Below, one piece after another: positions 1,607 through 7,415 of a stretch of DNA of 64,000 nucleotides. Under the pieces are notes generated by a model. It had not been told where the DNA came from. It worked only from the letters and a program-made list of their open reading frames with translations, and made no database searches. Made by a program: the position numbers and the translations under genes. Source of the DNA: Rhodomicrobium sp. R_RK_3 (GTDB lineage Bacteria; Pseudomonadota; Alphaproteobacteria; Rhizobiales; Rhodomicrobiaceae); contig NZ_MWLK01000036.1 in NCBI RefSeq assembly GCF_002198715.1, positions 310,223 through 374,222 of the forward strand, written 5' to 3'. Positions within the stretch are counted from its first letter, which is position 1; each line of letters starts with the position of its first letter.

Positions 1607-2653
1607 CTAACGGCCTCGCAGCAGCGTCGCAAGCTGCGCCTCGTCTAGATCGACGTGGTAGAAGCGCCGGTAGAAATCGCGTGTGATGTCTTTCAGGTCT
1701 TCGGGGAAGAGTTTTGGGTGCAGCAGCGCCGCAAGCCAGCGGATGCCGATCAGGCGGTTGACGCCGGGCGGCGCGTCGAACCAGCCATAGGGCAGATTGG
1801 GCGCGAGATAGATGCGGCCCGCGCGAACCGCCCGCACGGATTGCCAGAGCGGATCCGTTGAGACCTTGGCGTGGAAATTGGGATCGAGGGTCAAAATCAC
1901 ATCCGGGTTCCAGCCCAGCACCTGTTCGATAGAGACCTTGGTCAGACCGCCCTTGCCGGCCTCCGCCGCGACATTGACCGCGCCGACATATTCCAGCGCC
2001 TCCATGTTGATCGACCCGTCCAGCCCGGTTTCGAGCCCGTCCGCGCCGCGCCCGTAATAGATGCGCGGGCGTTCGCCGGCTGGGACTTGCGCGAGCTTCG
2101 CCTTGATGCCGTCAAGCACGTCCTCGGCATAGTGGGCGAGCTCCTCGGCGCGGTCCTTCAGCCCCAGCGCATCGCCGAGCGCGCGGTAGGTCGCGGGCGT
2201 GGCGGCCAAGGCGCCGTCGAACAGCAGATAGGGAATCTTCGTCTGGCTCTGCACCTCGTCGGCGAGCGAGACGAAGGTCGGCGCGGTGCTGCCGGCATCG
2301 ATGATGAGATCCGGCTTGAAGCTGAGCACGGTCTCCAGATTGGCGGTGTTGCCGCGCCCGGTCAGCCGGCCATATTCGGGCAGGTCGCGGACGGCGGGCG
2401 ACAAAAACGCCTTCTCCGGCGGGCGCGGCGCGCGCACCCAGCCGACCATCGTCTCGGGCGCCAGCGTATAAAGCAGGATCGAGGCGGGCGGCCCGGCGGC
2501 GAGCACCCGGCCCACGCTGGCGGGGATCTCCACGCGGCGTCCGCCGGCATCGGTCACGCTGCGGGTTTGCGTCTGGGCCGAGAGCGGCGGCGCGCCGAGG
2601 GCGGCGGCGGCGATGATCGAAAGGCACAGGCGCAAGATGGCGCGTCGGTCCAT
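1607..2653 (-). CDS. ABC transporter periplasmic substrate-binding protein (FecB/BtuF class)
   Basis: This 348-aa exported protein of the Peripla_BP_2 fold begins with MDRRAILRLCL, a hydrophobic stretch and a probable cleavage after PPLSAQ; the RRAIL segment resembles a Tat signal. The ATG at 2651-2653 is preferred over the one four codons upstream because GGAAG precedes it. The conserved C-terminal stretch LPYGWFDAPPGVNRLIG is typical of metal or oxyanion binders in this class. It is divergent from the permease and ATPase genes, and a Mo-box-like repeat lies in the shared promoter. The family usually binds siderophores, haem or cobalamin, but class II molybdate binders (MolA) also belong to it; the context favours molybdate or tungstate (inference). 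Confidence 0.82.
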   Translation of the reverse strand: MDRRAILRLCLSIIAAAALGAPPLSAQTQTRSVTDAGGRRVEIPASVGRVLAAGPPASILLYTLAPETMVGWVRAPRPPEKAFLSPAVRDLPEYGRLTGRGNTANLETVLSFKPDLIIDAGSTAPTFVSLADEVQSQTKIPYLLFDGALAATPATYRALGDALGLKDRAEELAHYAEDVLDGIKAKLAQVPAGERPRIYYGRGADGLETGLDGSINMEALEYVGAVNVAAEAGKGGLTKVSIEQVLGWNPDVILTLDPNFHAKVSTDPLWQSVRAVRAGRIYLAPNLPYGWFDAPPGVNRLIGIRWLAALLHPKLFPEDLKDITRDFYRRFYHVDLDEAQLATLLRGR

Positions 2654-2676
2654 ATTGTCTTCCATTCCGGTTCTGC

Positions 2677-2700
2677 GATATGTTTATCCAGATATATCGC
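2677..2700. promoter_or_regulatory. Mo-box-like inverted repeat (putative ModE operator)
   Basis: A 24-bp imperfect palindrome has half-sites CGATATGT and ATATATCG around an 8-bp spacer (7 of 8 positions pair). It sits in the divergent promoter between the substrate-binding protein and permease genes. Two sites of the same architecture lie before modA. The form matches the CG-N-TATAT type inverted repeat known for ModE/Mop regulators. No modE gene is in the window. Confidence 0.6.
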
Positions 2701-2777
2701 ATGGTTACCAGAATGGCCGCAACTCACGACTGCGCCACCGCAATTGCGCCGCCCGCCGAATTGCCGCAAGGTCGGGC

Positions 2778-3848
2778 ATGACGACAGGCAGCATGGACAG
2801 CGACGACGCGGACGAAACCGGCCTCGCCACGGCGCGGATGGGCCGGCGCGGCGCACCGCTGACGCTGATCGCCGCGCTGACGCTGCTGCTCGCCGCGATG
2901 ATGATCGGCGCGATGCAGCTCGGCCGCTATCCAATCGCGCTTGCCGATATTGGCGGGGCCATGCTGCGCCTGTTCACCGGCGGCGCGGCGGCCGGCCAGA
3001 TCGACACCGTGCTTTGGCAGATCCGGCTGCCGCGCATCCTCGCCGCCGTGCTGGTCGGCGCGGCGCTCTCGGCGGCGGGCGCGGCCTATCAGGGGCTGTT
3101 CCGCAATCCGCTGGTCTCGCCGGACATCCTCGGAGTCTCGACCGGCGCCGGGCTCGGCGCGGTGATCGGCATCTTCCTGTCGCTGCCGGTGCTCGGCATC
3201 CAGCTTTTCGCCTTCCTCGCCGGGTTGGCGACCGTCGCGCTGGTCTCCGCGATCGGCCTTTTGGTGCGCGACCGCGAGCCGATCCTCGTGCTGGTGCTGG
3301 CGGGCGTCGTGGTCGGCTCGCTGGCGGGCGCGGCGATCTCGCTGCTCAAAATCCTCGCCGATCCCTATGAGCAGCTTCCCGCCATCACCTTCTGGCTGCT
3401 CGGCAGCCTGTCCAGCATCCGCAATGGCGACGTGCTCTCCGCTTTGCCGATGATCCTGCTCGGCCTCGTGCCGATGATCCTTTTGCGCTGGCGCATCAAC
3501 CTGCTCTCGCTCGGCGACGAGGAGGCGAGCGCCCTCGGCCTCGAAACGCACCGGCTGCGCTATCTCATCATCGCCGCCGCCACGCTGATGACGGCGAGCG
3601 CCGTCGCCATTGCCGGCGTCGTCGGCTGGGTCGGGCTGATCCTGCCGCATCTGGCGCGGATGCTGGTCGGCCCCAATTTCGAGCGCCTGTTGCCGACCGC
3701 CATGCTGATGGGCGCGTGCTATCTGCTGCTGGTCGACACGCTGGCGCGCACCATGGCCAGCATCGAAATCCCGCTCGGCATCCTGACCGCGCTGGTCGGC
3801 GCGCCGTTCTTCCTCTGGCTGCTGGTCGCCAGGAGGGACGGCTGGTGA
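2778..3848 (+). CDS. ABC transporter permease, FecCD/BtuC family
   Basis: The 356-aa polytopic membrane protein has about ten hydrophobic segments. FecCD hallmarks include RLPRILAAVLVGAALSAAG, GLFRNPLVSPDILGVSTGA, FWLLGSLSS and the coupling region VGWVGLILPHLARMLVGP. The ATG at 2778 is chosen because AAGG lies 6-7 bp upstream; a longer open frame to 2613 would overlap the divergent gene. The ATPase gene overlaps its stop codon by 4 bp. It should form the membrane pore of the importer whose binding protein is divergent to it. The N-terminus carries an unusual acidic extension (MDSDDADE). Confidence 0.87.
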   Translation: MTTGSMDSDDADETGLATARMGRRGAPLTLIAALTLLLAAMMIGAMQLGRYPIALADIGGAMLRLFTGGAAAGQIDTVLWQIRLPRILAAVLVGAALSAAGAAYQGLFRNPLVSPDILGVSTGAGLGAVIGIFLSLPVLGIQLFAFLAGLATVALVSAIGLLVRDREPILVLVLAGVVVGSLAGAAISLLKILADPYEQLPAITFWLLGSLSSIRNGDVLSALPMILLGLVPMILLRWRINLLSLGDEEASALGLETHRLRYLIIAAATLMTASAVAIAGVVGWVGLILPHLARMLVGPNFERLLPTAMLMGACYLLLVDTLARTMASIEIPLGILTALVGAPFFLWLLVARRDGW

Positions 3849-4636
3849 GCGCGCCCCTGCTCGAAGCGCGCGGCCTCGCCTTCGGCTATCCCGGCCGCAC
3901 CGTCGGCCGCGATGTCGCCCTGTCGCTGCGGCCGGGCGAGATCATCTGCCTGCTCGGCCCGAACGGCTCGGGCAAGACCACCTTATTCAAGACTCTGCTC
4001 GGCCTGCTGCCCACGCATGGCGGCGAGGTGCGGCTCGGCGGCGATCTGCTCGGCCGGATGCCGCGCCGCGAGATCGCGCGCCGCGTCGCCTATGTGCCGC
4101 AGGCGCACGCCGCGCATTTCCCGTTCAAGCTGCTCGACATGGTGGTGATGGGCCGCGCCGCGCATCTGGGCCTCTTCGCCGCGCCCTCGGCCAGGGACCG
4201 CGAGCGCGCCCGCGCCGCTCTCGACCTGCTCGGCATCGCCGATCTCGCCGCCGCCGAATATACAAGGCTCAGCGGCGGCCAGCGGCAACTGGCGCTGATC
4301 GCCCGCGCCATCGCCCAGGATGCGGCCATCATCGTCATGGACGAGCCGACCGCCAGCCTGGATTTCGGCAATCAGGTCACGGTGCTGTCGGAGGTGAAGC
4401 GCCTCGCCAGCCGCGATCTGGCGATCATCCTCTCCACCCACGACCCCGACCACGCCTTCAGCGTCGCCGACCGGGTGCTGCTGCTGCAGAACGGGCGTTT
4501 GATAGCCGAGGGTGACCCTGCGTCGGTGCTGACGCCGGAGCGGCTGCGGGCGGTCTACGGCGTCGAGGTCGCCGTGGAGCAGCTATCGCGCGGCCAGACC
4601 GTCTGCGTGCCCGATTACGACCAGCCGCGCGGCTAA
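3845..4636 (+). CDS. ABC transporter ATP-binding protein, FecE/BtuD family
   Basis: This 263-aa cytoplasmic ATPase drives the FecCD-type permease. Walker A is GPNGSGKTT (38-46), the signature is LSGGQRQLALIARA, Walker B is AIIVMDEPTASLD and the switch is STHDPDH. The GTG start at 3845 overlaps the permease stop as GTGA and has AGGAGGG upstream, so the two are translationally coupled. The gene is followed by the modA promoter with its Mo-box-like sites. Substrate is not determinable from the ATPase alone. Confidence 0.9.
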   Translation: MSAPLLEARGLAFGYPGRTVGRDVALSLRPGEIICLLGPNGSGKTTLFKTLLGLLPTHGGEVRLGGDLLGRMPRREIARRVAYVPQAHAAHFPFKLLDMVVMGRAAHLGLFAAPSARDRERARAALDLLGIADLAAAEYTRLSGGQRQLALIARAIAQDAAIIVMDEPTASLDFGNQVTVLSEVKRLASRDLAIILSTHDPDHAFSVADRVLLLQNGRLIAEGDPASVLTPERLRAVYGVEVAVEQLSRGQTVCVPDYDQPRG

Positions 4637-4689
4637 ACAGCATTCATGCAAGCCCTTCGCTTGACTGTCAGCCGCAATATGCCATCATG

Positions 4690-4713
4690 CGCTGTATCCA
4701 ACTGAATATAGCG
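4690..4713. promoter_or_regulatory. Mo-box-like inverted repeat upstream of modA (distal)
   Basis: Half-sites CGCTGTAT and ATATAGCG flank an 8-bp spacer, pairing at 7 of 8 positions. The layout and length match the site at 2677-2700. It lies 100 bp before the modA start. An alternative upstream start for modA at 4687 would place this palindrome inside the coding region, which argues against that start. Confidence 0.62.
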
Positions 4714-4779
4714 ATTAGGTTTCCCATGCCCCTTTCGCAGATCAGCGCTTGCCGGTTTCAGCCAGGGCGGGTTATGACA

Positions 4780-4803
4780 CGTTGTGTTTGTTCGTATATA
4801 GCG
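4780..4803. promoter_or_regulatory. Second Mo-box-like site overlapping the modA leader
   Basis: The right half ATATAGCG is identical to that of the 4690 site; the left half CGTTGTGT is degenerate (5 of 8 to CGCTATAT). Spacing is again 24 bp overall. It ends next to the GAGGGAG ribosome binding site of modA, a position suited to repression. Confidence 0.42.
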
Positions 4804-4812
4804 AGGGAGTGT

Positions 4813-5601
4813 ATGCTCATGGCCGAGTTTGCCCTCTTGTTCCGTCCCTTGAAGCGGCTGGCGTCCTTGGCGGCGCTGCCGTTTGCCCTGCTCCTGCTCG
4901 CTGCCGCCCCGGCCGAAGCGGGCGAAGTCAAGGTCGCGGTCGCGGCAAATTTCACCGAGGCGGCCAAGGACATCGGCGCGGCGTTCGAAAAATCGACCGG
5001 CCACAAAGCCGTGTTCAGCTTCGGCGCCACCGGCCAGCTCTATACGCAGATCAGCCAGGAAGCGCCCTTCGAAGTCTTCCTTTCCGCCGACCAGACGACC
5101 GCCAAGAAGGCGGCCGATGACGGCTTTGCGGTGCCCGACAGCCGCTTCACCTATGCTACCGGCGGGATCGTGCTGTTCAGCAAGTACAAGGACCTCGTCA
5201 CCGGCGAAGCAACCTTGAAGGACGGCAAGTTCACCAAGATTGCCATCGCCAATCCGGCCACCGCCCCTTACGGCGCCGCAGCCGTCGAGGCGATGAAGGC
5301 GCTCGGCGTCTACGAGGCGCTGACGCCGAAAATCGTGCAGGGCAACAGCATCGCCCAGGCCTATCAATTCGTCGACACGGGCAATGCCGAGCTTGGCTTC
5401 GTCGCGCTGTCGCAGGTGATCGGCAAGGATGAGGGCTCGCGCTGGATCGTGCCGGCAGGGCTTTACACCATCATCGCGCAGGACGCCGTGCTGTTGAAAA
5501 AGGGCGCGGAGAATGAAGCGGCCCGCGCCTTTCTCGCCTATCTTAAGGATCCGGAAGCCAAGGCGGTGAAAGATAAATTCGGTTATGGCGCGGGCGATTA
5601 G
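4813..5601 (+). CDS. modA: Molybdate ABC transporter substrate-binding protein ModA
   Basis: This 262-aa periplasmic protein has a signal peptide (hydrophobic core ALPFALLLLAAA, probable cleavage after PAEA). The mature part starts GEVKVAVAANFTEAAKDIG, the classical ModA opening; FSFGATGQLYTQI and EVFLSADQ provide oxyanion-binding loops. The ATG at 4813 follows GAGGGAG; an ATG two codons later is an alternative. It is first of modABC, 15 bp before modB. ModA binds molybdate and tungstate. Mo-box-like sites just upstream suggest repression when molybdate is plentiful. Confidence 0.94.
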   Translation: MLMAEFALLFRPLKRLASLAALPFALLLLAAAPAEAGEVKVAVAANFTEAAKDIGAAFEKSTGHKAVFSFGATGQLYTQISQEAPFEVFLSADQTTAKKAADDGFAVPDSRFTYATGGIVLFSKYKDLVTGEATLKDGKFTKIAIANPATAPYGAAAVEAMKALGVYEALTPKIVQGNSIAQAYQFVDTGNAELGFVALSQVIGKDEGSRWIVPAGLYTIIAQDAVLLKKGAENEAARAFLAYLKDPEAKAVKDKFGYGAGD

Positions 5602-5616
5602 CAGTCAGGTCCATTG

Positions 5617-6300
5617 ATGCCGGATATCGCCGAGCTCTGGTCTCCGATCCGGTTGACGCTCGAGCTGGCGACAATCGCCACAGTGCTGCTGCTCGCCATC
5701 GGCACGCCGATCGCCTGGTGGCTGGCCCGCTCACCGGCGACATGGAAGGAGGCGGTCGCGGCTGTGATCGCGATGCCTCTCGTCCTTCCGCCGACCGTGC
5801 TGGGCTTCTATCTGCTGATCGCGCTCGGGCCGAACGGTCCCGGCGGCTGGGTCGCGGGCCTTTACGGCGCGCGCACGCTGGCTTTCACCTTCGAGGGGCT
5901 GGTGATCGGCTCGGTGCTGTTCTCCATGCCCTTCGTCGTGCAGCCGATCCGCAATGCTTTCGAAGCCATCGGCGAGCGCCCCCTGGAAGTCGCCGCCACC
6001 TTGCGCGCCTCGCCCTGGGACCGCTTCTGGACCGTCGCCGTGCCGCTCGCCCGGCCCGGCTTCATAACCGGCGCGGTGCTCGGTTTTGCCCATACGGTCG
6101 GCGAGTTCGGCGTCGTGCTGATGATCGGCGGCAATATTCCGGGCGAAACCAAGGTGTTGTCGATCGCCATTTTCGACTATGTCGAGACGCTGCAATGGAG
6201 CAAGGCGCATATTCTGGCGGGCGGGATGCTGGTCTTCTCCTTCTGCGTCATCCTGGCGATGATGCTGCTGGAGAAGCGCATCGGGCGGCCCGGCGCATGA
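5617..6300 (+). CDS. modB: Molybdate ABC transporter permease ModB
   Basis: This 227-aa inner-membrane permease has five to six hydrophobic segments and the conserved ATPase-coupling loop ([22 protein letters not shown]). [15 protein letters not shown] and [20 protein letters not shown] are characteristic of ModB. The ATG at 5617 is favoured over the adjacent TTG at 5614 because the AGG at 5607-5609 then has usual spacing. Its stop overlaps the modC start (ATGA). Confidence 0.93.
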
Positions 6301-7415
6301 ACGGCGAGGCCGGAGCCATCGCCGCAGCCTTCTCAGGCAGCCTTGGGACCTTCAGCCTGGACGTCGCCTTTGAGGCGCCGATGCGTGGCGTCACGGCGCT
6401 GTTCGGTCCATCCGGCTCCGGCAAGACCACGATCTTGCGCTGCATGGCGGGCCTGCATAAGCTCGCCGGGCGGCTGAGCGTCGGCGGCGAAATCTGGCAG
6501 GACGACGCGGCCGGCATCTTCCGCAAGGCGCATCAGCGGCCGATCGGCTATGTCTTCCAAGAGGCGAGCCTGTTCCCGCATCTGTCGGTGCGGAAAAACC
6601 TGCTTTACGGCGCGCGGCGCGCGGCGAAACAGGGCGCGGAGGAGTTGATCCGCGAGGATGAGATCGTCAGTCTGCTCGGCATTGGCCACCTGCTAGGGCG
6701 GGCGCCGCTGGCCCTGTCCGGCGGCGAACGCCAGCGCGTGGCGGTGGGGCGTGCGCTGCTGTCCCAGCCTCGGCTTTTGCTGATGGACGAACCGCTCTCG
6801 GCACTCGATCGCATGGCCAAGGACGAGATCCTCCCTTATTTCGAGGCCCTGCACCGGCATCTGTCGATCCCGATCGTCTATGTCAGTCACGACATCGCAG
6901 AGGTCGAGCGGCTGGCCGACACGCTGGTGCTGCTGGAGCGCGGGCGCGTGCTCGCCGCCGGTCCGCTATTCGAGCTGGAGGCCGACCCGGGATTGCCACT
7001 GCTGCGCGCGCCGGAGGCTGCTGTAACGCTAGAGGGCCGGATCGCCAGCATCGACGAGGCTTATGCGCTGACGGCGGTTTCGGTCGCGGGCGGCATGTTG
7101 GTCGTGCCGGGCATTCAGGGCCGCCTTGGCGATGCGCGCCGGCTGCGGATTACCGCAGCCGATGTGAGCTTCAGCCTGTCGCCGCCGGGCGATACGACGA
7201 TCCTCAATTGCCTGCCCGCGCGCATCCTCTCGATCACCGGGCAGACGGATGGCGAGCCGCAGGTCACCGTCGTGGCGGGGTTGGGCGCGGATGGCGCGGG
7301 GGCGCGCATCGTCGCGCGCATCACCCGCAAATCGCTGGAGGCGTTGGCGCTCGCGCAGGGTTCGCAGGTGTTCGCGCAGATCAAGAGCGTTGCGCTGCTG
7401 GCGTCCGGAGCCTGA
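6297..7415 (+). CDS. modC: Molybdate ABC transporter ATP-binding protein ModC
   Basis: The 372-aa protein has an N-terminal ATPase domain (Walker [10 protein letters not shown] at 37-45, signature [16 protein letters not shown], Walker [13 protein letters not shown], switch VSHDIAEV) and a C-terminal Mop/TOBE domain from about residue 290 that binds oxyanion in this family. The start overlaps modB by 4 bp, so modABC is one transcript. It powers molybdate import and the Mop domain can give trans-inhibition by molybdate. Confidence 0.94.

Follow-up and report, generated by a model that had tools for sequence, protein, structure and literature searches.

Both class II molybdate importers and Mo-boxes have been described before. 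The closest described importer, MolABC of Haemophilus influenzae (HI1472, HI1471 and HI1470), is a class II system for molybdate and tungstate (PMC4031551) that stands beside a ModABC system. MolBC-A is described as a low-affinity route beside ModBC-A, and molB as repressed by molybdate via a factor that the same source describes as unknown (PMC4031551). For the control of modABC, the closest described system is that of E. coli, where the ModE consensus is given as ATCGNTATATA-N6-TATATANCGAT (PMC545781).

We analysed a stretch of 64,000 nucleotides (the window) on contig C30 of a 5.79-Mb Rhodomicrobium genome. As in H. influenzae, a binding protein, a permease and an ATPase of the MolABC families are encoded beside modABC; unlike the genes of MolABC, those described here have a divergent order with a Mo-box-like site between them. 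We consider the genes at 1607-4636 likely to specify a class II ABC importer for molybdate and/or tungstate, and we predict that a ModE-type regulator represses both this importer and modABC at three Mo-box-like sites when metal is abundant. In the open-licence full-text literature, searched by titles and abstracts, we recognised no report of Mo-box control of a FecBCD-type importer, and we do not claim that none exists in print. Three points did not appear in the literature searched: the predicted joint Mo-box control of a MolABC-like operon and modABC, the wide occurrence of the clade under the names of iron transporters, and its association with Mop and TrmO and, among some relatives, with TonB receptors.

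A FecBCD-type importer beside modABC

Family profile scans showed that the FecB, FecCD, ATPase and modABC gene calls of a first-pass annotation, made from the sequence alone, are correct:

1607 to 2665, minus strand: FecB/MolA-type periplasmic binding protein (PF01497)
2778 to 3848, plus strand: FecCD-type permease (PF01032), closest solved relative HI1471 (MolB)
3845 to 4636, plus strand: ATPase of a FecCD-type importer (family profiles)
4813 to 5601, plus strand: modA (TIGR01256, over cut-off)
5617 to 6300, plus strand: modB (TIGR02141, over cut-off)
6297 to 7415, plus strand: modC (TIGR02142, over cut-off), with a TOBE domain

The binding-protein gene, which has an alternative later in-frame start at 2653, is divergent from the permease gene, with a promoter region of 112 bp between them. 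ModABC and TupABC importers, which presumably have the same substrates and are frequent neighbours of orthologs of the importer described here, are built from other families (PF13531 or PF12849, with PF00528), in contrast to the PF01497 and PF01032 proteins of this system. The gene that follows modC is cobD, which scores over its NCBIfam cut-off. At the other end, the window opens (positions 1-151) in the last part of a protein of 1731 aa (L092:2178-7373), the domains of which are DUF4011, a helicase-type AAA domain and REase_MTES_1575.

Mo-box-like sites upstream of both importers

We searched for sites with the 24-bp core of the E. coli ModE consensus, CGNTATAT-N8-ATATANCG. This pattern was published for E. 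coli and is therefore not fitted to the window. It recovers the modA operator of E. coli K-12 with one mismatch, and in the window it matches three places at three mismatches or fewer:

2676 to 2699, no strand: Mo-box-like site 1, within the 112-bp divergent promoter of binding protein and permease, 1 mismatch
4690 to 4713, no strand: Mo-box-like site 2, 5' of modA, 1 mismatch
4780 to 4803, no strand: Mo-box-like site 3, 9 bases 5' of the modA start used (4813), 2 mismatches

Dinucleotide shuffles gave a mean of 0.37 matches, and none of 100 had three. When the two intergenic regions (288 bp) were shuffled as mononucleotides, 12 of 20,000 shuffles had at least one site at two mismatches or fewer, and none had three. 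Core pattern and spacing are those of E. coli-type control of modABC, from which this locus differs in that a second importer also lies under a site; by pattern match, the importer promoter contains the E. coli-type Mo-box by which a member of a ModE regulon is recognised. The half-sites are imperfect, with palindromic outer pairs at 7, 7 and 5 of 8 positions in sites 1, 2 and 3, respectively, and against the full 28-bp E. coli consensus with its flanks the three sites have 7, 5 and 6 mismatches.

Strong matches are not frequent elsewhere in the genome. At one mismatch or fewer, the core pattern finds two places, and both are at this locus. The three 24-bp ModE-type inverted repeats that the first-pass annotation had described are borne out. 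Exactly two mismatches are found at eight places, one of them here; around some of these places, inspected by eye from reading frames only, no molybdenum gene was seen, and we treated them as background. One two-mismatch place (L027) adjoins an aldehyde dehydrogenase-like frame. At three mismatches or fewer the count is 67, which is not above the 79 of a reversed control; we therefore gave weak matches no weight, and a wider regulon drawn from them was rejected. A relaxed pattern, CGNTATRT-N8-AYATANCG, was picked after the sites had been seen, and at one mismatch or fewer it finds four places in the genome: the three described here and one within a reading frame on contig C31.

Positions 4661-4688, one base 5' of site 2, hold a promoter-like sequence (one found, 0.3 expected). 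The positions of the sites, with site 1 in the divergent promoter, site 2 one base behind the promoter-like sequence and site 3 just 5' of modA, fit a scheme of repression. A terminator scan also flags the inverted repeat of site 2 as terminator-like.

Relationship of the importer proteins to MolABC

In comparisons by family profile, the binding protein matched 4pag (6.5e-89) and 4ovk (9.8e-44), with MolA third (4e-37) and BtuF at 6e-15. The best solved match of the permease was MolB (HI1471, 3.8e-71), followed by a heme permease (4.2e-56) and BtuC (1.8e-38); matches of the ATPase were level (HI1470, 4.9e-42; FhuC, 1.2e-41). A tree placed the binding protein with MolA in a 33-row group with support of 84/87, a moderate value, and with long branches. 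BtuF lies one branch outside this group, and siderophore and heme rows lie elsewhere. By tree and scores alike, the binding protein groups with MolA and not with siderophore, heme or B12 proteins.

The binding protein differs from MolA, to which it is about 28 percent identical, in falling, with good support, into a separate clade with 4pag, a solute-binding protein of Sulfurospirillum deleyianum from structural genomics (30 percent identity). Residues D297, P299, P300 and R304, near the C-terminus, are conserved in this clade and in 4pag and absent from MolA; hence, the pocket may differ. In Foldseek, 2etv, described as a putative Fe(III) protein, ranked level with MolA (2.1e-21 and 3.8e-21), and structure comparison put the iron-named 4hn9 (Z 29.1) above MolA (Z 27.2).

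Molybdenum and tungsten genes around orthologs

We collected relatives of the importer from genomes of the same order, with hits in 24 of 199 genomes at E <=1e-30 (own genome included) and in 45 of 397 genomes at E <=1e-60. In the first batch, genes for molybdenum or tungsten (modA, tupA, mop, modE or MOT1) were present in the fetched stretch at 16 of 24 loci (15 of 23 without our own). Some of the query genes were drawn from these loci, and we fixed the criterion only once the first batch had been seen; with queries and criterion unchanged, a second batch of 22 further loci had such genes at 18. Across both batches, own locus excluded, they were found at 33 of 45 ortholog loci and in 18 of 20 families (32 of 45 loci with a 60-bit floor, which removes L201, a weak 42-bit modE match), leaving 12 loci without any. 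By comparison, none of the 40 control loci, other FecCD loci taken from the same genomes (12 families), had one (Fisher 8e-14 by locus and 4e-7 by family, with relatives treated as independent). These ortholog neighbourhoods are independent support for the reading as a molybdate or tungstate importer.

The control loci are part of the other FecCD matches from a search of 21 of the 24 genomes, and two loci were excluded as members of the Mo-box set (L128 on G132:C3 and L124 on G182:C32). Including both gives 1 of 42 with a molybdenum or tungsten gene. Matches to modB- and tupB-like permeases, present at 2 of the 40 control loci, were too unspecific and went uncounted in both sets. When representatives were scanned, Mop, ModA and TrmO were over cut-off, as was MOT1 over its Pfam cut-off; TupA (229.9 of 400) and ModE (88.5 of 98.5) were below.

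ModA-type genes stand at 8 of 23 first-batch loci (own excluded) and 7 of 22 second-batch loci, and TupA-type genes at 12 of 45, six per batch. At one locus (L086) the gene order is modE, modA, modB, modC, mop, trmO, binding protein, permease, ATPase. Such links to mop, trmO and tup genes distinguish orthologs of this importer from Haemophilus MolABC. Of the 45 ortholog loci, 14 (L070, L076, L079, L086, L088, L089, L203, L204, L205, L206, L209, L212, L218 and L222) have a gene of the TrmO/TsaA family next to the operon, against none of the 40 control loci. In our own genome, a TrmO/TsaA-family gene (L001:1830-2303) follows modE. Three loci encode orthologous binding proteins with no FecCD permease detected in 16 kb, one beside mop and trmO (L203) and two beside tup genes (L220 and L221). 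Two further stretches (L070:3290-4715 and L123) have modE, a Mo-box, modA and mop without modB, which is located elsewhere in both genomes.

The Mo-box itself is less widespread. The relaxed pattern at one mismatch or fewer gave 10 sites in 7 of the 45 ortholog loci and none in the 40 control loci. With 38 of 45 loci lacking one at this threshold, an upstream Mo-box was rejected as a conserved hallmark of these operons, and the argument from conservation therefore rests on the genes. Only L203 has such a site directly 5' of the binding-protein gene. Binding protein and permease are on one strand in all 41 orthologs in which both were found (no permease was found in four); hence, the shared divergent site is seen only in this genome, and the divergent arrangement around a common site may be a peculiarity of this lineage. 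Across 23 relatives, the relaxed pattern at one mismatch or fewer finds 26 places, against 7 for the reversed control. Among 20 regions fetched around such sites, 10 have modA, 10 have modE and 11 have some molybdenum or tungsten gene, and so the box marks molybdate genes about half the time in this order.

ModB is over cut-off in 22 of the 24 genomes, and the FecBCD-type system was accordingly rejected as the sole molybdenum importer. No nitrogenase was found as a consumer of the metal, the single nifD match scoring 25.1 bits against a cut-off of 653.55.

A short ModE and a separate Mop-like protein

A ModE-like gene, for which the first-pass annotation had proposed a search, is present on contig C19, in the region of C19:24028. 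Its product matches TIGR00637 (E 1.4e-24) with 86.0 bits, below the curated cut-off of 98.5, and is a DNA-binding domain of about 135 aa. The domain scan found HTH_1 only and no TOBE domain; the protein is therefore not a full-length ModE, a difference from E. coli-type control. Short forms are common in relatives: counted from the first Met, 12 of 16 distinct ModE genes (17 entries, L079 and L126 containing the same one) give 113-140 aa. One is full length (L090, 273 aa with two TOBE stretches), and the remaining three, including that of our own genome, read longer from an upstream Met. A relaxed site lies within about 150 bp of 7 of the 12 short modE genes, most of these stretches having been fetched for holding a site. 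For the single-domain ModE proteins of Desulfovibrio, the mode of molybdenum sensing is described as not clear, and their sites as different from the E. coli type (PMC545781).

We infer that the short ModE binds the three sites at our locus and relies on a partner, perhaps a Mop protein encoded separately, to sense the metal. A Mop-like protein of 70 aa is encoded on contig C28, with a score slightly below cut-off (51.7 of 55 bits). The presence, in the same genomes, of a short ModE without a sensing domain and of an E. coli-type box makes the question of single-domain ModE sensing approachable.

About 1.3 kb separate the Mop-like gene from a match to the 5' ureB sRNA family (L093:3431-3720 and 5046-5258). 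On contig C19, about 4 kb from modE, a SECIS element is located at the start of a formate dehydrogenase alpha frame (TIGR01553, L094:9483-12695), the product of which is likely to be a selenocysteine-containing molybdo- or tungstoenzyme.

Proposed regulation and alternative readings

The first-pass annotation had read the FecBCD-type genes as a second molybdate or tungstate importer under the same predicted metal control as modABC. The sites, the protein relationships and the ortholog neighbourhoods together support this reading: the genome contains a ModE-like gene, strong sites are rare elsewhere, and the binding protein does not group with siderophore or BtuF proteins. The substrate would be a group-6 oxyanion. 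When molybdate is scarce, a ModE-type repressor would be off the three boxes, so that binding protein, permease-ATPase pair and ModABC would all be produced; when molybdate is abundant, importer and ModABC would be shut off together. Site 1 would serve both divergent promoters, and sites 2 and 3 would serve modABC. By analogy with ModBC-A and MolBC-A of H. influenzae, ModABC may provide high-affinity uptake and the FecBCD-type system a further route of other affinity or preference, a two-route scheme that the low affinity of MolBC-A and the repression of molB fit. A MolABC-like operon with a ModE-type site in its promoter makes the question of the Haemophilus mol coupling factor testable in an environmental bacterium.

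The importer could instead prefer tungstate and leave molybdate to modABC, joint control then arising because the regulator reads either metal. We regard this as possible but do not favour it. MolA is described as binding tungstate as well as molybdate (PMC4031551), and TupA-type genes recur at ortholog loci as noted above; however, the one TupA checked against NCBIfam is below its curated cut-off, ModA-type genes are equally common at these loci, and the partner here is modABC. It is unlikely, in our judgement, that the importer takes up molybdate or tungstate while a factor other than the short ModE reads the sites, or while the site at the divergent promoter is not read at all. Such a view can draw on the HTH-only structure of our ModE, on the Desulfovibrio proteins and on the lack of the divergent site in orthologs, whereas the short modE goes with the box in relatives (the 7 of 12 genes given above, from stretches mostly fetched for a site).

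Other substrates fit less well. An ordinary siderophore, heme or iron-complex importer is what the names of relatives would suggest, since many homologs bear the JGI name "iron complex transport system substrate-binding protein", and iron-named structures (2etv and 4hn9) are among the close folds. We consider this reading very unlikely: models of iron, heme and siderophore binding proteins score far below cut-off (for instance NF010649, 41.9 of 374; IsdE, 23.4 of 298.65; FhuD, 19.9 of 252), orthologs have molybdenum or tungsten genes as neighbours, and TonB receptors, which are usual though not obligatory beside siderophore and heme importers, stand at 6 of 45 ortholog loci as against 26 of 40 loci in the control set. 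Some of the sequences that seeded the TonB profile came from ortholog loci, a bias that works against the observed difference. The idea of a vitamin B12 importer of the BtuFCD type that neighbours modABC by chance seems to us barely credible, despite cobD 3' of modC, the place of BtuF as the nearest outside row to the MolA-containing group, and BtuC models at the head of the NCBIfam permease list. These BtuC models are far below cut-off (239.4 of 461 and 182.4 of 334), as is the BtuF model (21.8 of 234 bits). No cobalamin riboswitch of Rfam reached the gathering score in six stretches searched, our own locus (L092) among them, and the profile search found no TonB receptor in L092. The neighbours of orthologs and the Mo-box-like site in the importer promoter also argue against B12. 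In one relative, L128, a FecCD operon judged by eye to be of B12 type lies a few kb from modABC; together with cobD, this means that adjacency to modABC proves little by itself. With iron-complex names on many homologs, cells with two or three routes for molybdenum or tungsten would be read as having one.

TonB receptors beside some orthologs

In some relatives, a TonB receptor stands next to an ortholog with Mo-box-type sites (L079:2251-4290 and L206:1937-4348) or with weaker site-like sequences upstream (L090:9209-11347 and L091:14920-17247), a combination hinting at chelated molybdenum. The site-like sequence of L090 has a 9-bp spacer, and that locus adjoins the full-length modE. Tentatively, and with more doubt than confidence, we suggest that the clade is a widespread alphaproteobacterial line of molybdenum and tungsten acquisition under iron-transporter names, and that ModE-controlled operons of some members pair a TonB receptor with an importer for chelator-bound metal (a molybdophore), so that one ModE regulon would extend from receptor to cytoplasm.

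In L090, a luciferase-like monooxygenase gene (PF00296, L090:8227-9201) separates the genes for TonB receptor and binding protein. One of the two loci excluded from the control set, L124 (L124:6011-9307 on G182:C32), has a second, different operon of FecCD permease, ATPase and binding protein, with a zero-mismatch relaxed Mo-box about 500 bp 5' of the permease gene; the binding protein of that operon shares 45 percent identity with one that adjoins the TonB receptor of L206.
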